From Fluviirhizobium alvei (GTDB lineage: Bacteria; Pseudomonadota; Alphaproteobacteria; Rhizobiales; Rhizobiaceae): 64,000 nucleotides of DNA. Below the pieces are notes generated by a model, which was not told where the DNA came from, searched no databases, and saw only the letters and a program-made list of their open reading frames with translations. Positions 5,202 to 30,957 of this stretch are shown in pieces. The stretch lies in assembly GCF_030551875.1 (NCBI RefSeq), contig NZ_JAUOZU010000002.1, positions 1 through 64,000 of the forward strand, read 5' to 3'. Each line of letters begins with the position of its first letter. The first letter of the stretch is position 1. The position numbers and the translations under genes were made by a program.

Positions 5202-5901
5202 TCTCCCCGCCGCCGACCTCCGCCATCTCCGGCAGCCCGATCCCGCGGCCCTGCGCCCGGTTGCCTCCACCCATCCGCCGCGCATCCTCATCCTCTACGG
5301 TTCGGTGCGCCCGGTCTCCTACAGCCGGCTGCTCGCCGAAGAGGCAGGCCGCCTGCTGACCCATTTCGGCGCCGAGGTGCGTTTCTTCAATCCGTCCGGC
5401 CTGCCTTTGCCTGATGATGCGCCGGTCAACCATCCAAAGGTCGAGGAGTTGCGGGCACTGTCGGAATGGTCCGAGGGCCAGGTCTGGGTCAGTCCGGAAC
5501 GGCATGGCGCTATCACCGGCATCATGAAGGCGCAGATCGACTGGATTCCGCTGTCGATCGGCGCCATCCGCCCGACCCAGGGCAAGACGCTCGCCGTCAT
5601 GCAGGTTTCGGGCGGCTCGCAGAGCTTCAATGCGGTCAATACGCTGCGGCTTCTCGGCCGCTGGATGCGGATGATCACCATCCCCAACCAGTCCTCGGTC
5701 GCCAAGGCCTGGCAGGAGTTCGACGGCGATGGCCGTATGAAACCATCCTCCTATTACGAGCGCGTTGTCGATGTCTGCGAGGAACTGATCAAGTTCACCC
5801 TTCTGACCCGCGACTGCTCGTCCTATCTCACCGACCGTTATTCCGAACGCAAGGAAGACGCGGAAAAGCTCGAAGCGCGGATGAAACTGAAATCGATCTG
5901 A
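5194..5901 (+). CDS. arsH: ArsH NADPH-dependent FMN reductase / organoarsenical oxidase
   Basis: Flavodoxin-like NADPH:FMN oxidoreductase known to oxidise trivalent methyl- and aryl-arsenicals. Recognisable blocks are [70 protein letters not shown] and the C-terminal DRYSER region. The start chosen is TTG 5194 (235 aa), because GGAGG at 5181-5185 lies 8 nt upstream and the resulting [10 protein letters not shown] terminus is family-like. An ATG at 5158 is in frame but has its AAGGAGG directly abutting the start codon. The gene overlaps arsC by 8 nt and ends 16 nt from the convergent arsA stop. Confidence 0.92.
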
Positions 5902-20537: not shown

Positions 20538-21053
20538 ATGGTGCGATTGAACGAAATCCGCGAAAATGAAGTTGCCGTCGAGGCGCCGGATCCGGTCGAC
20601 GCGCATCTGACCTATATCGGCCGCATCAAGACGCCCTGGACCTCACGGATGGAAACGCCGCGCCAGGGCCGTCATGACGGACCGGTATGCGAAATCGAGA
20701 TCTTTGAGCCCTGGGTGGCGGCGCTCAAGGGCGTCGAGCGCTTCGAGCGGCTGGAAATTCTCTATTGGCTTGATCAGTCCCGCCGCGATCTCGTGCTGCA
20801 AAGCCCGGCCTCGAACGGCGAGGTGCATGGAACCTTCTCGATCCGCTCGCCGGTCAGGCCCAATCCGATCGGCACCTCGATCGTTCTTCTCGACCGGATC
20901 GAGGGCAATCGCCTCTTCGTGCGTGGATTCGATTGCCTCGACGGTACGCCGCTTCTCGATCTCAAACCCGACAGGTCGCTGTTCAAACCGATCGCGCCGC
21001 CGCAACCCGGCGACTTCGAAACCGCACCGCGCGCCCATTGCGTCAAAGCGTAA
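20538..21053 (+). CDS. trmO: TrmO-type tRNA t6A37 N6-methyltransferase (TsaA domain)
   Basis: Beta-barrel SAM-dependent methyltransferase of the TsaA/YaeB family that makes m6t6A at position 37 of ANN-decoding tRNAs. The 171-aa protein contains IGRIKTPW, the RSPVRPNPIGTSIVLL signature and the LDGTPLLDLKPD motif. It is shorter than E. coli TrmO (about 235 aa), lacking the C-terminal extension, as is common in this family. It has its own AGGA ribosome binding site, and the cobalamin riboswitch begins about 130 nt downstream. No functional link to the neighbours is evident. Confidence 0.85.
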   Translation: MVRLNEIRENEVAVEAPDPVDAHLTYIGRIKTPWTSRMETPRQGRHDGPVCEIEIFEPWVAALKGVERFERLEILYWLDQSRRDLVLQSPASNGEVHGTFSIRSPVRPNPIGTSIVLLDRIEGNRLFVRGFDCLDGTPLLDLKPDRSLFKPIAPPQPGDFETAPRAHCVKA

Positions 21054-21182
21054 GCTGCTGCTTTCAATAGGGATTTTCGAACTTTCGCAGGGAATTTGTC
21101 GCAAAAGTGATTTTTGTTGGGATACGCCATGTCGATGTCGCAAACAGGCTGGCGGTGTCGTATCGCCTGTGTTGATATCGCG

Positions 21183-21356
21183 ATGCTTGAGGTGCCCGGC
21201 AGTTTTCGCCGGGAGAATTGGGAAGCCGGTCGAATTCCGGCGCTGCCCCCGCAACGGTAGGGGAACTCAAGGGCGACGGGAGCCACTGGGCCTAGGCCTG
21301 GGAAGGGGTCGCCTGGTCCGCAAGGACAGTTCCATAGCCCGGAAACCAGCCTCGGG
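21183..21356 (+). promoter_or_regulatory. Cobalamin (AdoCbl-type) riboswitch
   Basis: The 5' half carries GGGAAGCCGGTCGAATTCC followed by CTGCCCCCGCAAC (about 21230-21254). The centre has GCCACTGGGCC (about 21282-21292). The 3' end has the B12 box AGCCCGGAAACCAGCC (21336-21351). These are the invariant core elements of the cobalamin family in the right order and spacing. The downstream gene is the Rieske oxygenase at 21490, about 135 nt away. The expression platform probably includes GTCCT (21463-21467) pairing with AGGAC (21480-21484), which covers the ribosome binding region. Confidence 0.93.
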
Positions 21357-21489
21357 AATTTGAACTCGACTGATCGCGGTGGGCGGTCAAGAGGCAGATG
21401 GCCCGTGACGTCCGGTTCCGCCGGTCCGTGCTGGCGCGTCCCCTCGATGTCCACCATGCCCAGTCCTTGGAAAACGACGAGGACCGACC

Positions 21490-22731
21490 ATGGACATCCG
21501 TTCCGACATGCTTTCGCGGCTCAAGAACCGTAAACCCGGCTTCAGCCTGGACCAGCCCTTCTACATCGATCCGGCCTATTACCAGCTCGATCTCGAACAT
21601 ATATGGTACAAGGACTGGCTGTTCATCGGTCACGATTGCGAACTGCCGAATCCCGGCAGCTACATGACGGTTCAGGTCGGCGCCTATCCGGTCGTCATCG
21701 TTCGCGACAATGATGGCAAGATCAACGCGCTCCACAACTCCTGCCGCCATCGCGGCAGCCGCGTCTGCCTCGAGCACAAGGGCCAGTCGCCCAAGCTCGT
21801 CTGCCCCTATCACCAGTGGACCTACGAGCTCGATGGCAAGCTGCTCTATGCGCGCCAGATGGGTGAGAATTTCGACACATCGGGCTTCGGCATGAAGCCG
21901 GTGGCCTGTGAAACCGCCGGCGGCTACATCTTCATCTGTCTCGCCGACGAGCCGATGGATTTCGCGCCCTTCCGCGCCATGATGGAACCCTATTTCCTGC
22001 CGCACCGCCTGCGGGATGCCAAGGTCGCCTTCGAGAGCACCATCATCGAGAAGGGCAACTGGAAGCTCGTCTGGGAAAACAACCGCGAATGCTACCATTG
22101 CGCCGGCAACCATCCCGAACTCTGCAAGACCTATCCCGAAGCCCCCACGGCGACCGGCGTCAACGGTGCCGAGGATGATCCGGAAATCGCCGAGCACTGG
22201 CAGAAATGTGAGGGCATCGGCCTGCCGAGCAAGTTCGTCATCGATCCGGCCGGCCAGTTCCGCACCGCCCGCATGCCGCTCCTGCGCGATGCCGTCTCCT
22301 ATACGATGTCGGGCCGTAAGGCGGTGCAGATGCGCCTGTCCGACCAGGTCAACATGGACCGCATCGGCACGCTTCTGCTGTTCCATTACCCGACCACCTG
22401 GAACCATGTGCTTTCCGACCATGCCGTGACCTTCCGCGTGCTGCCGATCAGCGCCACCGAAACCGCCGTCACCACCAAGTGGCTCGTCCACAAGGATGCG
22501 GTCGAGGGCATCGACTACCGTCTCGACGAACTCACCCATGTCTGGACCGAGACCAACGACCAGGACCGCCAGATCGTCGAGGAAAATGCCTTCGGCATCC
22601 AGTCGCCGGCCTATGAACCGGGCCCCTATTCGGAAGTGCATGAGGGCGGCGTCGCCCAGTTCGTCGAATGGTACGCCAACTTCATGGAGAAGCGGCTGAC
22701 GGGCAAGCCCGCGCTGCGCTCCGTCGCCTGA
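21490..22731 (+). CDS. gbcA: Rieske oxygenase, glycine-betaine monooxygenase alpha-subunit type
   Basis: Terminal oxygenase that demethylates a quaternary amine, most likely glycine betaine, to dimethylglycine plus formaldehyde. The 413-aa protein has the Rieske ligands Cys85, His87, Cys105 and His108 (CRHRGSRV and CPYHQW). The mononuclear iron region is ENNRECYHCAGNHPEL (Glu200, His203, His208). Overall layout matches GbcA. Stachydrine demethylase and carnitine oxygenase are related alternatives. The reductase gene follows 14 nt later and a dimethylglycine-dehydrogenase-like gene lies about 11 kb downstream. A cobalamin riboswitch precedes it, so high B12 should lower its expression. Confidence 0.87.
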   Translation: MDIRSDMLSRLKNRKPGFSLDQPFYIDPAYYQLDLEHIWYKDWLFIGHDCELPNPGSYMTVQVGAYPVVIVRDNDGKINALHNSCRHRGSRVCLEHKGQSPKLVCPYHQWTYELDGKLLYARQMGENFDTSGFGMKPVACETAGGYIFICLADEPMDFAPFRAMMEPYFLPHRLRDAKVAFESTIIEKGNWKLVWENNRECYHCAGNHPELCKTYPEAPTATGVNGAEDDPEIAEHWQKCEGIGLPSKFVIDPAGQFRTARMPLLRDAVSYTMSGRKAVQMRLSDQVNMDRIGTLLLFHYPTTWNHVLSDHAVTFRVLPISATETAVTTKWLVHKDAVEGIDYRLDELTHVWTETNDQDRQIVEENAFGIQSPAYEPGPYSEVHEGGVAQFVEWYANFMEKRLTGKPALRSVA

Positions 22732-22745
22732 TCGGGGGAAACGCG

Positions 22746-23861
22746 ATGGCCAAGGTGCAACTGATGGGCTCCGTGCCCGCCGCCCTTCATATCGATGAAA
22801 TGAAGCCGTGGAACTCCGCCCGCCAGATGCTGGTCTGCACCGGCGTCGTCGATGAGGCGCCGGACGTCAAGACCTTCACCTTCGCGGTGGAGGGCGGCGG
22901 CTGGTTCCGTTATCTGCCGGGCCAGTTCATCACGGTGGAACTGCGTGCCGAAGGGGGAGATCTGCACCGCACCTACACGATCTCGTCGTCGCCATCGCGT
23001 CCCTATGCCATTGCCATAACCATCAAGGCGCAGCCCAACAGCATCGGCACCCGCTGGATGTTCGATAATATCGTGGCGGGCAGCCGCGTGCGCGCCTATG
23101 GGCCGAGCGGCCATTTCACGCTGTCGCGCAATCTGGCGAAGAAATATCTTTTCGTTTCGGCCGGGTCCGGCATCACGCCCATGATGTCGATGCTGCGCTG
23201 GCTCGCCGATTGCGCACCGGGGACTGATGTCACCTTCATCAATTCCTCGCGCCGTCCGGAAGAGATCATCTTCCGCGAAGAGCTGGAACTGCTGGCGACC
23301 CGCATGCCCAACCTCAAGCTCGGCTTCCTGCCGGAATCGCGCTCGGGCGTCACGCCCTGGGCGGGGCTGATGGGCCGCATCGATCTGCAGAAACTGACGA
23401 TGTTCGCGCCCGATTTCCTCGATCGCGAGATCTTCTGCTGCGGACCCGATCCCTTCATGAAGGCGGTGAGCACCATCGTTAAGGCAGAGGGTTTCGATAT
23501 GGCCCACTACCATCAGGAAAGCTTTGGTGCGACCGCGCTGACCGATGTTGCCCAGAAGCCGGCCAATGACGATGTGCTGGCCGGCGAAGAAGCTGGCAAC
23601 CGCCACAAGGTCGAGTTTCTCGGCACCGGTGAGCAGGCGTTCTGCGCCGGAGACCAGACGGTTCTTGTCGCGGCCCGATCGGTTTCCGTTCGCATTCCCG
23701 CCGCCTGCGAAAGCGGCCTTTGCGGTACCTGCAAGGTCAAGAAACGTTCCGGCGAGGTCGAGATGCACCATAATGGCGGCATTTCCGATGCCGAGATCGC
23801 CGATGGCTATATCCTGGCCTGCTGCTCGCGCCCGCTCGGCACTATCGAGATCGAGGCCTGA
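22746..23861 (+). CDS. gbcB: Flavin/2Fe-2S reductase partner of the Rieske oxygenase
   Basis: Electron-transfer component, 371 aa from ATG 22746. An FAD-binding ferredoxin-reductase domain (RTYTISSSPSRPYAIAITIK) and an NAD-binding domain (YLFVSAGSGITPMMSMLRWLA; IFCCGPDPFMKAV) precede a C-terminal plant-type 2Fe-2S ferredoxin with CESGLCGTCKVKK and a final Cys pair. This is the GbcB/VanB-like fused organisation. It transfers electrons from NAD(P)H to the GbcA Rieske centre. Spacing of 14 nt to gbcA shows one transcription unit under riboswitch control. Confidence 0.9.
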   Translation: MAKVQLMGSVPAALHIDEMKPWNSARQMLVCTGVVDEAPDVKTFTFAVEGGGWFRYLPGQFITVELRAEGGDLHRTYTISSSPSRPYAIAITIKAQPNSIGTRWMFDNIVAGSRVRAYGPSGHFTLSRNLAKKYLFVSAGSGITPMMSMLRWLADCAPGTDVTFINSSRRPEEIIFREELELLATRMPNLKLGFLPESRSGVTPWAGLMGRIDLQKLTMFAPDFLDREIFCCGPDPFMKAVSTIVKAEGFDMAHYHQESFGATALTDVAQKPANDDVLAGEEAGNRHKVEFLGTGEQAFCAGDQTVLVAARSVSVRIPAACESGLCGTCKVKKRSGEVEMHHNGGISDAEIADGYILACCSRPLGTIEIEA

Positions 23862-24099: not shown

Positions 24100-24121
24100 C
24101 AGGAAGAGAGTGGCAGCCGAT

Positions 24122-24589
24122 CTACGCTCTAGACCGGCTGCAGCCTGCCATCGGTCGATCCGACATCGTCAGAATGTGCGACAGATTGTCGTTGCCCACG
24201 ACCAGATCCGACAGGAAAACCGCATCGAGCGAGGTGTAGAAAGCCTCGACCGCCTTCTGGATCGCCGGCCGCAGCCAGCAGGCGGAAACGAGCGGACAGG
24301 TGTTGTTTCGGCTCATGCATTCGGCAAAGGGAAGATCCTGTTCGAAGGCGCGAAAAACCGTGCCGATGTTGATTTTCTCGGGCTCGTGCGCCAATTGAAG
24401 CCCGCCGGTACGGCCCCGGGACGCATCGATCACGCCCTTGTGGGCAAGCGTACGGATCACCTGCGCGAGATGATTTTCGGACGCGTTGCAGGCTTCGGCG
24501 ATATCGACTTTGCGCACCATCCTGTCCGGATTGACGGCGCAGAACATCAATGTCCGAATGGCCAGATTGGTGCGCGTCGTGATCCGCAT
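24122..24589 (-). CDS. Rrf2-family regulator, NsrR-like
   Basis: Winged-helix regulator of 155 aa with an Rrf2 N terminus (MRITTRTNLAIRTLMFCAV) and HTH ENHLAQVIRTLAHKGVIDASRGRTGGLQLA. Three C-terminal cysteines, Cys91, Cys98 and Cys104 (CMSRNNTCPLVSAC), are positioned to hold an Fe-S cluster, as in NsrR and IscR. The absence of isc/suf genes nearby and the divergent cydDC favour an NO-sensing NsrR-like role. It reads away from cydD, and the shared intergenic region contains a perfect FNR-type box. Confidence 0.82.
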   Translation of the reverse strand: MRITTRTNLAIRTLMFCAVNPDRMVRKVDIAEACNASENHLAQVIRTLAHKGVIDASRGRTGGLQLAHEPEKINIGTVFRAFEQDLPFAECMSRNNTCPLVSACWLRPAIQKAVEAFYTSLDAVFLSDLVVGNDNLSHILTMSDRPMAGCSRSRA

Positions 24590-24615
24590 CGCTATGGATT
24601 CCCCTCCATCATCGT

Positions 24616-24627
24616 CCTATGGATAGG
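24616..24627. promoter_or_regulatory. Small inverted repeat in the nsrR/cydD intergenic region
   Basis: CCTATGGATAGG has 5-bp arms and lies 27 bp upstream of the Rrf2 gene start on its non-coding side. It could be an autoregulatory site for the Rrf2 protein. The evidence is symmetry and position only. Confidence 0.25.
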
Positions 24628-24647
24628 CCCCAAAAAGCCGGTCGATA

Positions 24648-24661
24648 TTGATCTGCATCAA
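24648..24661. promoter_or_regulatory. FNR/FixK-type box upstream of cydDC
   Basis: TTGATCTGCATCAA is an exact match to TTGAT-N4-ATCAA. Its centre lies about 72 nt before the cydD ATG and about 65 nt from the divergent Rrf2 start, suitable for oxygen-controlled activation of cydDC. The same motif stands before cydA. Confidence 0.8.
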
Positions 24662-24726
24662 CATGTCTGGAGAATGATGTTGTTTTGGAGTGGCTTACCG
24701 TGCCGGCTTTGGAAACGGGCCGGGCG

Positions 24727-26424
24727 ATGACCAGAAGAGCAGGGCGCAAGACAGATCCGGCAGCACAAAGGCTGCTCGCGATCGAGAGCGGTGAACGACC
24801 GAGGCTCCGGCTTGCGACGGCTCTGATCCTGGCCGGCGGCCTGTTGGTGCCGGTTCAGTCGGCAATTGCGGCTTACGGGCTGGGACGCGTCGCGCTCGAT
24901 CCCGCGCTCGATGCCCCCATTCTCGGGCTGGTTCTCGCCTTTGCCCTTGCCGGGCTTCTGCGGATGGCGCTCGATCTTTATGGTGGACGTCTGGCCTTCC
25001 TGGCGGCGCAATCGGCCATCGACCGGCTTCGAAACCGGCGCGTCGCCACCGCGCTTCTGACGTCGCCCTTTGCTTCCGGCCAGCTTTCCTCGGCAGCGCA
25101 TGCCGCACTCATCGGCGAGAAACTCGATCTCCTGGCGCCCTATTTTTCCCGCTACTGGCCGGCGCGCCGCAAGGTCATGCTGTTGCCCTTCGTCATCCTT
25201 GCCGTCACGGCCTGGTATTCCTGGGCGGTGGCGCTGATCCTCCTCGTTGCCGGGCCGCTCATCCCGCTCTTCATGGCTTTGATCGGCATTTCGGCGCGCA
25301 ACCTCTCCGAAAAGCAGCTCGCCGAAACGGCCTCCATCAACGCGCTTCTGCTCGAACGTCTCAATGCGCTTGCCGATATCCGCCTGCTCGATGGCCGGGC
25401 CACCATGCTCAGCCAGTTTGCGGCCAGTGCCGAAGCGCTCCGGCTGCGCACCATGGCCGTCCTGCGCATCGCCTTTCTGTCATCGACGGTGCTTGAACTT
25501 TTCTCGGCGCTGGGTGTGGCGCTCGTCGCCGTCTATGTCGGTTTCAGCCTGCTTGGCGTCTTCTCCTTCGGCAGCTGGGGCACGCCGCTTGGCCTGTCGG
25601 AAGGCCTGCTCCTGCTGCTTTTGGCGCCGGAATTCTTCAATCCGCTGCGCGAACTGGCCGCCGGCTGGCATGATCGCGCTTCCGCACTCGCCGTCGCCGG
25701 CGAGATCGATGCCGAGGAGAAACGCGATCCGCTGCGTATTCTGGGTCGGGGTGCGGTCGCCGAATCGCTTGCCGGTCCACTCTCGCTTGAGACACGCGAT
25801 CTCGTGGCCGAACTGCCGGGAACGGCCGCCATCGCCTATCCCGATTTCGTGATCCGGACCGGCGAGACGGTGGCGGTGAGCGGCCCGAGCGGCGTCGGCA
25901 AGAGCCTGCTTCTGAGCCTCCTTGCCGGCCTCATTCCGCCCCGCAGCGGCTCGATCCTCGTTCATGGCGCGCTGCTTGACGACAGCAACGCCGATCGCTG
26001 GCGGGCCGAGATTGCCTGGATCCCGCAGCGGCCGAAATTCCGCAGTGCCAGCATCCGCGCCAATCTCTGCGGTTCAGCCCAGCCGCTCGATCACGAAAGG
26101 CTGGATCGCGCCCTTGCGCTGGCTGGTCTGCAGGAGGTGATTGCGCGCCTGCCACGCGGGCTCGATACAAGGCTCGGCGAAAGCGGTAGCCAGCTTTCGG
26201 GCGGTGAGGCGCGTCGCCTGATGATCGCGCGTGCGCTCTATGCCGACGCCACGCTTATCCTTGCCGACGAACCCACCGCCGATCTCGATGCCGACAATGC
26301 CGCCCGGGTTGCGGATGCCCTGCTTGGCCTTTCGAATGGCGGCCGCACCCTCATCGTCGCCACCCACGATCAGGACCTTGTGGGGCGGATGGACCGCGTC
26401 ATTGCGCTTGGAGGTCAGCCATGA
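24727..26424 (+). CDS. cydD: CydD subunit of the heterodimeric thiol-reductant ABC exporter
   Basis: Half-transporter of 565 aa. CydDC exports glutathione or cysteine to the periplasm and is required for cytochrome bd assembly. A six-helix membrane domain (about residues 25-310) precedes the ATPase with Walker A GPSGVGKS, signature LSGGEARRLMIARAL and Walker B LILADEPTADLD. ATG 24727 was preferred over an in-frame TTG at 24685. Its stop overlaps the cydC start by 4 nt (ATGA). An FNR-type box lies upstream. Confidence 0.92.
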   Translation: MTRRAGRKTDPAAQRLLAIESGERPRLRLATALILAGGLLVPVQSAIAAYGLGRVALDPALDAPILGLVLAFALAGLLRMALDLYGGRLAFLAAQSAIDRLRNRRVATALLTSPFASGQLSSAAHAALIGEKLDLLAPYFSRYWPARRKVMLLPFVILAVTAWYSWAVALILLVAGPLIPLFMALIGISARNLSEKQLAETASINALLLERLNALADIRLLDGRATMLSQFAASAEALRLRTMAVLRIAFLSSTVLELFSALGVALVAVYVGFSLLGVFSFGSWGTPLGLSEGLLLLLLAPEFFNPLRELAAGWHDRASALAVAGEIDAEEKRDPLRILGRGAVAESLAGPLSLETRDLVAELPGTAAIAYPDFVIRTGETVAVSGPSGVGKSLLLSLLAGLIPPRSGSILVHGALLDDSNADRWRAEIAWIPQRPKFRSASIRANLCGSAQPLDHERLDRALALAGLQEVIARLPRGLDTRLGESGSQLSGGEARRLMIARALYADATLILADEPTADLDADNAARVADALLGLSNGGRTLIVATHDQDLVGRMDRVIALGGQP

Positions 26425-28198: not shown

Positions 28199-29800
28199 AT
28201 GATGGACATTGATGTCGTAGAGCTGTCACGCCTGCAATTTGCGATGACGGCGCTTTACCATTTCCTCTTCGTTCCCCTCACTTTGGGCCTGTCCATCCTC
28301 GTTGCGATCATGGAGACGGTCTATGTCATGACCGATCGTCCGATCTGGCGGCAGATGACCAAATTCTGGGGAACCCTGTTTGGAATCAATTTCGTTCTCG
28401 GTGTCGCCACCGGGATCACCATGGAATTCCAGTTCGGCATGAACTGGAGCTATTACAGCCATTATGTCGGCGATATTTTTGGTGCCCCGCTTGCCATCGA
28501 GGGCCTGATGGCCTTCTTCCTCGAAGCGACCTTCGTTGGCCTGTTCTTCTTCGGCTGGGACAAACTGTCGAAGGTGGCACATCTGGTCGTCGCCTGGCTG
28601 GTGGCGATCGGCTCGAACTTTTCGGCGCTGTGGATCCTGATCGCCAATGGCTGGATGCAGCATCCGGTCGGCGCCACCTTCAACCCCGTCACCATGCGCA
28701 TGGAAATGACCAGCTTCTTCGAGGTCATGTTCAACGAAGTCGCGCAGGCGAAATTCGTCCATACCGTCTCGGCAGGCTATGTCACCGCCTCGGTCTTCGT
28801 GCTCGGCGTTTCGGCCTGGTATCTGCTGAAGGGCCGTCACATCGATCTCGCCCGCCGGTCGATAGCGGTGGCGGCGAGCTTCGGCCTTGCCTCGGCGCTC
28901 TCCGTCGTCGTTCTCGGCGATGAATCGGGCTATTCGGTCGGCTATTCGCAGAAGATGAAGATGGCGGCCATCGAAGGCATGTGGGAAACCCAGCCGGCAC
29001 CGGCCTCCTTCACCCTTGTCGGCTTTCCCGATCAGAAGGCGCGCGAAACCCATTACGCCATCCATATTCCCTATGTGATGGGCCTGATCGGCACCCGTTC
29101 GCTGACCGAGCAAATTCCCGGCATCGACAAGCTGGTTGCCGAGGGCGAAGCCCGCATCCGTTCGGGAATCCAGGCCTATGATGCGCTGATGGCAATCCGC
29201 GCCAACAAGCATCAGGTCACTCCGGAACTCAAGAGCCGCTTCGAGGAACATGGGGCCGATCTCGGCTTTGCGCTTCTGCTCAAGCGTTATGTCGACGATC
29301 CGCGCCAGGCGACGCCGGAACAGATCACCATGGCGGCGAACGACACGGTTCCCACCGTCTGGCCCCTGTTCTGGGCCTTCCGCATCATGGTCGGCCTCGG
29401 CTTCTCCTTCATCGCGGTCATGGCCTGGTTCTTCTACATGTCGTCGTTTAGGCGCATGCAGTTCCCGCGCTTTGCGCTCTGGCTCGCCGTCATCATCATC
29501 CCGACGCCCTGGATTGCCGCCGAACTCGGCTGGTTCGTCGCCGAATTCGGTCGCCAGCCCTGGGTGGTGGATGGCGTTCTGCCCACGGTACTGGCTGCGT
29601 CCCAGCTCAGCGTGACCGATCTCCTGATCACGCTCGCCGGTTTCGTGCTCTTCTACACGGTGCTGTTCGTGGTCGAGATGGGCCTGATGATCAAATATAT
29701 CCGCAAGGGTCCGCATCAGGATGTCGCTGAAACCGATGTCTGGATGGCCAGCCACAGTGGCCGGCTCGCCGGTGCCCCTGCACCCCTTCCTGCGGAGTAA
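28199..29800 (+). CDS. cydA: Cytochrome bd ubiquinol oxidase subunit I
   Basis: Haem-carrying subunit of the bd quinol oxidase, 533 aa, multi-span membrane protein. Haem ligands are placed at His21, His188 (KFVHTVSAGYV) and Met397 (FRIMVGLG), and the proton-channel glutamates at Glu101 and Glu109 (EGLMAFFLEA). The loop between about residues 250 and 390 is long, as in the E. coli-type enzyme. GWFVAEFGRQPWVV is the C-terminal family signature. Two adjacent ATGs (28199, 28202) follow a GGAGTGAG ribosome binding site. Together with cydB and cydX it forms the complete oxidase. Confidence 0.95.
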   Translation: MMDIDVVELSRLQFAMTALYHFLFVPLTLGLSILVAIMETVYVMTDRPIWRQMTKFWGTLFGINFVLGVATGITMEFQFGMNWSYYSHYVGDIFGAPLAIEGLMAFFLEATFVGLFFFGWDKLSKVAHLVVAWLVAIGSNFSALWILIANGWMQHPVGATFNPVTMRMEMTSFFEVMFNEVAQAKFVHTVSAGYVTASVFVLGVSAWYLLKGRHIDLARRSIAVAASFGLASALSVVVLGDESGYSVGYSQKMKMAAIEGMWETQPAPASFTLVGFPDQKARETHYAIHIPYVMGLIGTRSLTEQIPGIDKLVAEGEARIRSGIQAYDALMAIRANKHQVTPELKSRFEEHGADLGFALLLKRYVDDPRQATPEQITMAANDTVPTVWPLFWAFRIMVGLGFSFIAVMAWFFYMSSFRRMQFPRFALWLAVIIIPTPWIAAELGWFVAEFGRQPWVVDGVLPTVLAASQLSVTDLLITLAGFVLFYTVLFVVEMGLMIKYIRKGPHQDVAETDVWMASHSGRLAGAPAPLPAE

Positions 29801-30957
29801 TGGTGATGGTTCTTTTCGAACTGATTGATTTCGATCTCCTGCGCGTCGTCTGGTGGCTGCTCCTGGGCGTCCTGCTCACCGGCTTTGCGCTCACGGATGG
29901 CTTTGATCTGGGCGTCGGCGCGCTTCTGCCCTTCGTTGCCCGCACCGATATGGAGCGCCGCATCGCGCTCAACACGATCGGCCCGGTCTGGGAAGGCAAC
30001 CAGGTCTGGTTCATCCTCGGCGGCGGCGCCATCTTCGCCGCCTGGCCGCCGCTCTATGCGGTCAGCTTCTCGGGCTTTTATCTGGCGATGTTTGCCGTTC
30101 TGGCGGCCCTCATCCTGCGTCCGGTCGGCTTCAAGTACCGCTCCAAGCGCGACAGCGCCCTCTGGCGGTCGGCCTGGGACTGGGCGCTTTTCGTCGGCGG
30201 CGCGGTGCCGGCACTGATTTTCGGCGTTGCCATGGGCAATGTGCTGCAGGGCGTGCCCTTCCGCTTCAACGAGGATCTGATGATCTTCTATGAAGGCAGC
30301 TTCTTCGGCCTGCTCAATCCCTTCGCGCTGCTGGTCGGGGTCGTGTCGCTCTCCATGCTCGTCATGCATGGCGCCGCCTGGCTCAACCTCAAGACTGAAG
30401 GCACAGTCCAGGCTCGGGCCCGCAAGATCGGTGCTGCCGCTGCCCTCATAACCATCGCGACTTTCGTACTGGCCGGTGTCTGGCTGGCCTATGGCATCAC
30501 CGGCTATGAAATCACCAGCGTCATCGCGCCGGGGTCGCCCTCCAATCCGCTGCTGAAGGACGCTGCGGCGAGCGGAAACTGGCTTGCGGCCTATTCGGTA
30601 CGGCCGTGGATCGCAGTGGCACCGGTGCTCGGAATAATTGGTGCTACCCTGGCTTACCTCGGATTGAGGGCCGGACGCGAAGTCTCGACGCTGCTCTATT
30701 CGAAACTGGCGATCATCGGCATCATCGCAACGGCGGGGCTCACCATGTTCCCCTTCATCCTGCCGTCGTCGCTGGATCCGAAGGCATCGCTGACCGTCTG
30801 GGATGCCTCGTCCTCGCACCAGACCCTGTTCGTGATGCTTGTGGCTGCCGTCATCTTCATGCCGATCATCCTCGCCTACACCGCCTGGGTCTACAAGGTT
30901 CTGTGGGGCAAGGTCACAGCCGCCGAGATCACCGTCAAATCTGAATCCGTCTACTGA
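29800..30957 (+). CDS. cydB: Cytochrome bd ubiquinol oxidase subunit II
   Basis: Structural subunit of the bd oxidase, 385 aa with about eight or nine membrane helices. The N-terminal signature GFALTDGFDLGVGALLPF and GPVWEGNQVWFILGGGAIFAAWP are diagnostic. The first ATG (29800) shares its A with the cydA stop codon. A second ATG two codons further (29806) is also possible. The C-terminal segment LAYTAWVYKVLWGKVT precedes cydX by 14 nt. Confidence 0.95.
   Translation: MVMVLFELIDFDLLRVVWWLLLGVLLTGFALTDGFDLGVGALLPFVARTDMERRIALNTIGPVWEGNQVWFILGGGAIFAAWPPLYAVSFSGFYLAMFAVLAALILRPVGFKYRSKRDSALWRSAWDWALFVGGAVPALIFGVAMGNVLQGVPFRFNEDLMIFYEGSFFGLLNPFALLVGVVSLSMLVMHGAAWLNLKTEGTVQARARKIGAAAALITIATFVLAGVWLAYGITGYEITSVIAPGSPSNPLLKDAAASGNWLAAYSVRPWIAVAPVLGIIGATLAYLGLRAGREVSTLLYSKLAIIGIIATAGLTMFPFILPSSLDPKASLTVWDASSSHQTLFVMLVAAVIFMPIILAYTAWVYKVLWGKVTAAEITVKSESVY

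Follow-up and report, generated by a model that had tools for sequence, protein, structure and literature searches.

Why should a cobalamin (vitamin B12) riboswitch stand before an operon for an enzyme that uses no B12? The question is posed by a 64,000-nucleotide stretch of DNA from Fluviirhizobium alvei (assembly GCF_030551875.1, contig NZ_JAUOZU010000002.1, positions 1 to 64,000; hereafter the window), in which such a riboswitch precedes gbcAB, a Rieske-type operon predicted to demethylate a quaternary amine. The observation of a cobalamin riboswitch before a gbcAB-type Rieske operon is confirmed here, and we consider it very probable that the two form a B12-controlled isozyme switch. This reading is drawn from sequence, namely from the riboswitch and its conservation, a covarying hairpin beside it, the presence of both the B12-independent and the B12-dependent gene set in one genome, their co-occurrence among relatives, and the clustering of gbcAB with nrdAB and metE. 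The central features of the window are as follows.

21173-21368, forward strand: cobalamin riboswitch aptamer (RF00174), by Rfam match, with a conserved core at 21220-21350
21490-22731, forward strand: gbcA, oxygenase subunit (Rieske type) of a demethylase for a quaternary amine, probably glycine betaine, by its domains and NF058607
22746-23861, forward strand: gbcB, reductase subunit with FAD, NAD and 2Fe-2S domains, by NF058606, PF00970, PF00175 and PF00111

The riboswitch was the sole match above gathering when the whole window was scanned against Rfam with cmscan. It scored 106.3 bits (E 1.3e-25), far over the RF00174 gathering score of 31.5 bits, and spans model positions 1-189 of 189, so that the element is full-length. 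An earlier note on this DNA, made from the letters alone, had named the core elements of a cobalamin riboswitch before a GbcA-type gene and proposed an Infernal run as a check; the match agrees with that description, and the motifs GCCCCCGCAAC and GCCACTGGG and the B12 box AGCCCGGAAACC are all present. Its spacing of about 135 nucleotides (nt) to gbcA is close to the 139 nt that we compute from the end of the aptamer core (21350) to the ATG at 21490; its start of the element at 21183 had the right location and lay about 10 nt late, as the model match begins at 21173. At least five RF00174 sites, the window site included, occur in the 5.2 Mb genome (150 of 337 candidates scored). The other four that were found lie upstream of cobP/W/N/O, of a DUF1636 gene with a periplasmic binding protein, of a nitroreductase-family (BluB-like) gene and of CbiM. 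The genes behind these four look like B12 supply; gbcAB alone is evidently a target of a different kind.

The gbcA product has Rieske (PF00355) and Ring_hydroxyl_A (PF00848) domains, to which GbcB adds FAD, NAD and Fer2; since these are the only domains of the two proteins, the controlled enzyme uses no B12. NF058607 is by far the best NCBIfam match of GbcA (518 bits, curated cut-off 670), and GbcB scores 375 bits on NF058606 (cut-off 500). The gbcB start at 22746 was picked by the GGGGG ahead of that ATG, the longest frame being 22668-23861.

The same genome carries candidates for a B12-dependent betaine route, including five MttB-family genes. Most of the relevant genes lie on one contig, C42, where frames were chosen by third-position GC with both strands tried (length alone gave wrong-strand open reading frames).

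C42, 16-22 kb: cobO, cobN, cobW and cobP, behind a cobalamin riboswitch
C42, 34.8 kb: MtgE/Bmt-type methyltransferase (NF005718, 547.6 bits, cut-off 338)
C42, 46.9 kb: MttB-family protein, by Pfam domain
C42, 51.3 kb: MtgC-type stand-alone corrinoid protein (PF02607 match at C42:51376-51594)
C42, 51-60 kb: DUF1638-type and MTHFR-type genes, in the same stretch as the MtgC-type and MtgD-type genes
C42, 55.8 kb: MtgD-type, pterin-binding protein, by Pfam domain
C42, 57.7 kb: RACo/RamA-type protein, by Pfam domain

By Pfam domains, MttB-family, stand-alone corrinoid, pterin-binding and RACo activase proteins are thus all present, and the search for MtgB/MttB-type and bmt genes that the earlier note had proposed recovered both MttB-family proteins and an MtgE/Bmt-type protein. 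NCBIfam cut-offs are passed only by MtgE (NF005718) and the MtgD-like protein (NF005719); because the MtgC, MttB and RACo proteins score below theirs, they are named here by their Pfam domains and neighbouring genes. Candidates for MtgC and MtgD near C42:43-47 kb were rejected, the matching genes being those at C42:51-57 kb. As the MtgC-type gene is the sole PF02607 match in the genome, the search for metH by this domain yielded no full-length MetH, and methionine synthesis may depend on a split MtgC/D/E enzyme. In Ruegeria pomeroyi, MtgC and MtgD are described as acting in B12-dependent glycine betaine demethylation together with a split methionine synthase, and Sinorhizobium meliloti as having a colocated version of the Mtg set (PMC12478193); F. 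alvei has the same MtgBCD(E) modules by Pfam domain. It would therefore encode a B12-dependent enzyme for betaine demethylation (MttB family, MtgC type), presumably catalysing the same reaction as GbcAB.

The substrate of the window GbcA is probably glycine betaine, which is our best guess. The same isozyme logic might instead apply to another substrate, such as proline betaine, carnitine or gamma-butyrobetaine, with an enzyme closer to the Stc2 type than to Pseudomonas GbcA and another MttB paralogue as its partner, and this we regard as unlikely. Among PDB entries the window GbcA matches 3VCA/4QUP and 3N0Q best (about 544 bits), 3VCA and 4QUP being the stachydrine demethylase Stc2, and an S. 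meliloti 1021 plasmid protein 58.3% identical to the window GbcA is rated at 495 bits by the GbcA model, close to the 518 of the window protein. The five MttB genes would also allow for another partner. Of these, the C42 MttB gives 1047 bits to 4YYC and 410 bits to 9YCE, a glycine betaine methyltransferase, and paralogues on contigs C1, C44 and C9 match 9YCE with 422, 357 and 324 bits. Against a different substrate stands the Paracoccus versutus orthologue (70.4% identity), which sits in what looks like a glycine-betaine catabolism set. This cluster has a GlxA-family regulator with GbdR as its best NCBIfam match (188 bits, cut-off 480), a glutathione-independent formaldehyde dehydrogenase fdhA over its cut-off, a BCCT transporter of the betaine type (626 bits, cut-off 650), a GcvT/SoxA-like FAD oxidoreductase (a weak match), ETF, folD and purU. 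Furthermore, the GbcA model gives 633 and 652 bits for L118 and L120, two riboswitch-bearing loci of the class survey described below.

The earlier note had also proposed a survey of the 5' regions of gbcA orthologues. The related loci considered were the best 80 of 594 found in public genomes, with GbcA identities of 70-90%. Rfam placed a riboswitch directly upstream of gbcA in all of the first 10 that were checked, and a covariance model (R1) was built from the window leader and the leaders of these 10 relatives, replacing a simple motif search that caught only part. R1 scores 135.2 bits on the window riboswitch, itself one of the 11 sequences that built it. With this model the riboswitch proved to be conserved, standing ahead of gbcA at the same position and on the same strand in 60 of the 80 loci. 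The 20 loci without it comprise 15 Rhizobium-type loci, three from Agrobacterium, one from Xaviernesmea oryzae (L052) and one from Sphingomonas paucimobilis (L078). All 15 Rhizobium-type loci belong to one clade and have no adjacent gbcB (L047, L050 and L053 are examples), so that either their GbcA must obtain a reductase from elsewhere or the role of the gene has changed. For a class survey, 385 alphaproteobacterial genomes were drawn evenly (homologue threshold E < 1e-100); they added 22 genomes with a GbcA homologue, besides F. alvei itself, and 25 loci. Seven of these have the riboswitch, all within the 11 closest (L110-L120; 47-70% identity; E <= 1.6e-129).

If gbcAB is the B12-independent member of an isozyme pair, the riboswitch is expected to accompany a B12-dependent counterpart. 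We tested for MttB in the genomes of 31 of the 60 riboswitch loci (30 and, further, L006) and of all 20 riboswitch-less loci among the best 80. MttB was found in 29 of the 30 genomes with a gbcA riboswitch and in L006, as against none of the 20 without; a stand-alone MtgC was likewise present in 29/30 versus 0/20 of the same 50 genomes. The sole riboswitch genome without MttB is L061, whose element (5642-5833) is visibly decayed and looks like an intermediate toward loss. It scores 57.9 bits with Rfam, above gathering, and 60.6 bits on R1, the lowest of the 60, and the core GCCACTG motif is gone. L052, the neighbour of L061 in the GbcA tree, lacks both the riboswitch and MttB. All seven riboswitch genomes of the class survey have MttB, as do 6 of the 15 without a riboswitch, two of these six having closer homologues (G158 and G092) and four remoter ones (G402, G325, G107 and G229).

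The GbcA tree has 63 rows, which are the closer homologues, the 14 remoter loci being left out. Riboswitch and MttB are both present in 38 rows and both absent in 22, the riboswitch occurs without MttB in one row and MttB without the riboswitch in two; the expected link hence holds in 60 of 63 rows, with MttB in 38/39 riboswitch genomes versus 2/24 without. Fisher's test gives p 1e-13 for the co-occurrence, a value that ignores kinship and on which we do not rely. On the tree each trait needs four changes, as against at least 14 in 200 shuffles of the riboswitch labels. Three supported independent pairs are available, of which none is opposite in direction and, on average, 0.5 show no difference. 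Beside this pattern we note a short (288-base) annotated MttB-family frame, possibly a remnant, on an Agrobacterium plasmid (L139:16671-16958), near gbcAB, fdhA and betaine transporters.

An isozyme switch had been suggested in the earlier note, and those of its proposed checks that were run all spoke for it. The suggestion is also supported by the company that gbcAB keeps in some genomes, where it clusters with riboswitch-led metE and nrdAB. In L042 (1073-11440) and L036 (1169-11124) the nrdAB, gbcAB and metE operons lie within about 10 kb with gbcAB in the middle, each operon having its own RF00174 element (92.9-134.7 bits); genes were called by PF02867 and PF00268 for nrdAB and by PF01717 and PF08267 for metE. 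A riboswitch followed by nrdA and nrdB adjoins riboswitch-led gbcAB in L057. In L140 a riboswitch-led class I nrdA faces the gbcA riboswitch, with a weak NrdB match downstream (28%); the best PDB match of this NrdA is 6DQW, the alpha chain of a ribonucleotide reductase, and B12-dependent ribonucleotide reductases score far lower. Genes for nrdA (L041 and L038) or nrdB (L013) also occur near gbcAB where the nrd leaders lie beyond the stretch examined. Overall, nrd or metE genes were found near gbcA, in stretches of 3 to 20 kb, in 7 of 67 riboswitch loci as against none of 22 without.

An alternative explanation, which we consider improbable, is that gbcAB is an accessory gene set of B12 synthesis, betaine demethylation feeding it glycine and methyl groups. 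In its favour, betaine stimulates industrial B12 production (PMC8123684), and the other riboswitch targets found in F. alvei look like B12-supply genes. This reading is disfavoured by two controls in the same 50 genomes. CobN is present in all 20 genomes without a gbcA riboswitch and in 29 of the 30 with one, and cobalamin riboswitches elsewhere were found in 50/50, including 20/20 without a gbcA riboswitch (the counts being lower bounds). The riboswitch-less relatives have thus kept CobN and other cobalamin riboswitches, yet lack MttB and stand-alone MtgC, which indicates that the switch follows the corrinoid methyltransferase system and not B12 synthesis. The islands of nrdAB, gbcAB and metE would also be left unexplained by a supply of precursors.

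How the isozyme switch might act is suggested by the leader between aptamer and gbcA, which has three further features.

21371-21389, forward strand: P13-like hairpin with a conserved CGGNGGG loop, directly 3' of the aptamer, by motif conservation and covariation
21463-21467, forward strand: anti-Shine-Dalgarno segment GTCCT, read in the sequence
21479-21483, forward strand: Shine-Dalgarno (SD) sequence GAGGA of gbcA, with 21463-21467 as a possible pairing partner, by sequence and pairing computation

The covarying hairpin at 21371-21389, absent from the earlier note, is presumably P13, its loop meeting L5 as in other cobalamin riboswitches. Its motif GCGGNGGGC occurs in 60 of 61 leaders (the window and the 60 related loci) and is absent at that place only in L061, which has a near match to the L13 motif further downstream and none in the first 75 nt. 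Among 26 distinct hairpin sequences 94.2% of cells are paired, a value that together with the covariation score was reached by none of 500 shuffles, and paired cells fall to 14-53% when the partners are slid by 1-3 columns. Pairs changed on both sides (3/6) were not above shuffles (99/500 as high), nor were further pair types (472/500 as high), and one pair is open in 8 of the 26 sequences. The C-rich L5 loop of the aptamer is invariant in 11 aligned leaders, and the hairpin is a candidate kissing-loop partner for it.

The earlier note had claimed that a GTCCT/AGGAC hairpin could hide the ribosome binding region. The complement does exist, AGGAC (21480-21484) pairing with GTCCT (21463-21467) and covering the SD sequence, and GTCCT followed by AGGAC as an exact pair is found in 40 of 61 leaders. 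The window SD has a pairing probability of 0.83, whereas 30 shuffled versions of the sequence before it average 0.63 and one of them is as high; across leaders the mean is 0.72 observed and 0.60 with shuffled upstream sequence, and 46 of 60 leaders exceed the average of their own shuffles in SD pairing. These figures speak for translational OFF control of gbcAB but do not prove it. The distance from the aptamer core to the gbcA start codon ranges over 116-235 nt across riboswitch loci, and in three Mesorhizobium loci (L020, L021 and L025) the anti-SD and SD sequences are set apart by roughly 100 nt of inserted sequence that bears palindromic repeats.

We infer the following course of control. 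GbcAB would provide the O2-dependent, B12-independent route for the first betaine demethylation, most likely converting glycine betaine to dimethylglycine and formaldehyde, under control of the riboswitch in its 5' leader. With ample cobalamin, the aptamer would bind it, the L5-L13 contact would form and the SD sequence would be held in the GTCCT/AGGAC hairpin, so that gbcAB would be poorly translated, and the corrinoid route (MttB/MtgB, MtgC and MtgD, with RamA) would deliver the methyl group to folate or methionine. A shortage of B12 would allow gbcAB to be made.

The opposite direction, in which cobalamin activates gbcAB, is highly improbable. Cobalamin riboswitches generally turn their genes off, the anti-SD/SD hairpin agrees with this direction, and the nrdAB and metE of the islands encode B12-independent isozymes, the classic OFF targets of cobalamin riboswitches. 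Scarcely credible is an aptamer that is dead or belongs to a lost neighbour: second cobalamin riboswitches before TonB-dependent receptors, which probably serve B12 uptake, lie near gbcAB in L044 (5296-5493, reverse strand) and L019 (8769-8975, forward strand) and show that elements for other genes do occur close by, but conservation before gbcA in the 60 of 80 loci and the covarying hairpin disfavour a mis-inserted element, and decay is visible in L061 only.

Several points weigh against the isozyme switch. The window GbcA and GbcB both score below their NCBIfam cut-offs, as do the MtgC, MttB and RACo proteins of F. alvei against the nearest NCBIfam models. L116 and L117 have MttB and no riboswitch. 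The 14 remoter loci of the class survey (L121-L134) are without the riboswitch in every case, though four of their genomes carry MttB; when these homologues are counted, MttB is present in 6 of 35 riboswitch-less genomes, and the border separating the 11 closer loci from these 14 was set after the riboswitch result was known. The 15 Rhizobium-type loci, being one clade and without gbcB, may have changed for another reason. The independent changes are few (four per trait), and the three supported pairs are too few to give the co-occurrence significance. Finally, masking of the SD sequence is just modestly above that in shuffles.

To our knowledge, the established cases of riboswitch control of B12-independent isozymes have so far been two classic pairs, metE/metH and nrdAB/nrdJ. 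In kind, gbcAB would be a further case of this known class, B12-controlled B12-independent isozymes. It shares the aptamer family and the isozyme logic with metE, which adjoins it behind its own riboswitch in L036 and L042, but its target is a catabolic Rieske demethylase and its B12-dependent partner the MttB/MtgC system. Like class I nrdAB as generally known, which is its neighbour in L036, L042, L057 and L140, it is O2-dependent and B12-independent, although it differs in reaction and partner. Pseudomonas GbcAB, which is controlled by GbdR, resembles the window enzyme in being a Rieske oxygenase with a reductase and gives the best NCBIfam match; in contrast, the window proteins lie below the curated cut-offs and would be under RNA control that either replaces a GbdR-like regulator or acts alongside one. 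In L007 and L044 a GlxA-family regulator does lie close to riboswitch-led gbcAB, matching that of Paracoccus at 60% and just 28%, respectively.

In a literature search no report came up that connects gbcA or another Rieske demethylase with a cobalamin riboswitch, an earlier mention in classic survey tables being possible. In the available part of the MtgBCD(E) paper (PMC12478193) "riboswitch" appears once only, in the title of a glycine-riboswitch reference, and no link of gbcAB to B12 control was found there; the parts of PMC9870897 and PMC2881028 at hand likewise hold nothing on a gbcA-riboswitch link. For Mesorhizobium loti, PMC5948670 lists cobalamin riboswitches ahead of metE and bluB, and the B12-independent MetE is mentioned in PMC2667541.

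In the window, the forward-strand order is a trmO-like gene (20538-21053), the riboswitch, gbcA, gbcB, a frame of 206 codons without a Pfam or NCBIfam match (24110-24727), cydD-like and cydC-like genes and cydA, followed by a presumed cydB (29800-30957). As a betaine gene, gbcA is thus linked here with gbcB only, then come cydDC and cydA.

It seems reasonably likely that gbcAB is, with metE and nrdAB, a third general B12-independent isozyme in an alphaproteobacterial B12-shortage module that is sometimes a physical island. B12 supply would then decide through the riboswitch whether betaine methyl groups are transferred by corrinoid proteins to folate and methionine or burned with O2 to formaldehyde, and the switch would decay once the corrinoid route is lost. 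The finding would add a catabolic pair to the riboswitch-controlled B12-independent isozymes and tie B12 supply to the breakdown of betaine, an abundant osmolyte, in aerobic soil and plant-associated bacteria. For annotation, an orphan Rieske demethylase with such a leader can be taken as the likely counterpart of an enzyme of the MttB family. If the switch works as proposed, B12 would toggle these bacteria between O2-dependent and corrinoid-dependent betaine demethylation, changing both their formaldehyde output and their methionine supply.

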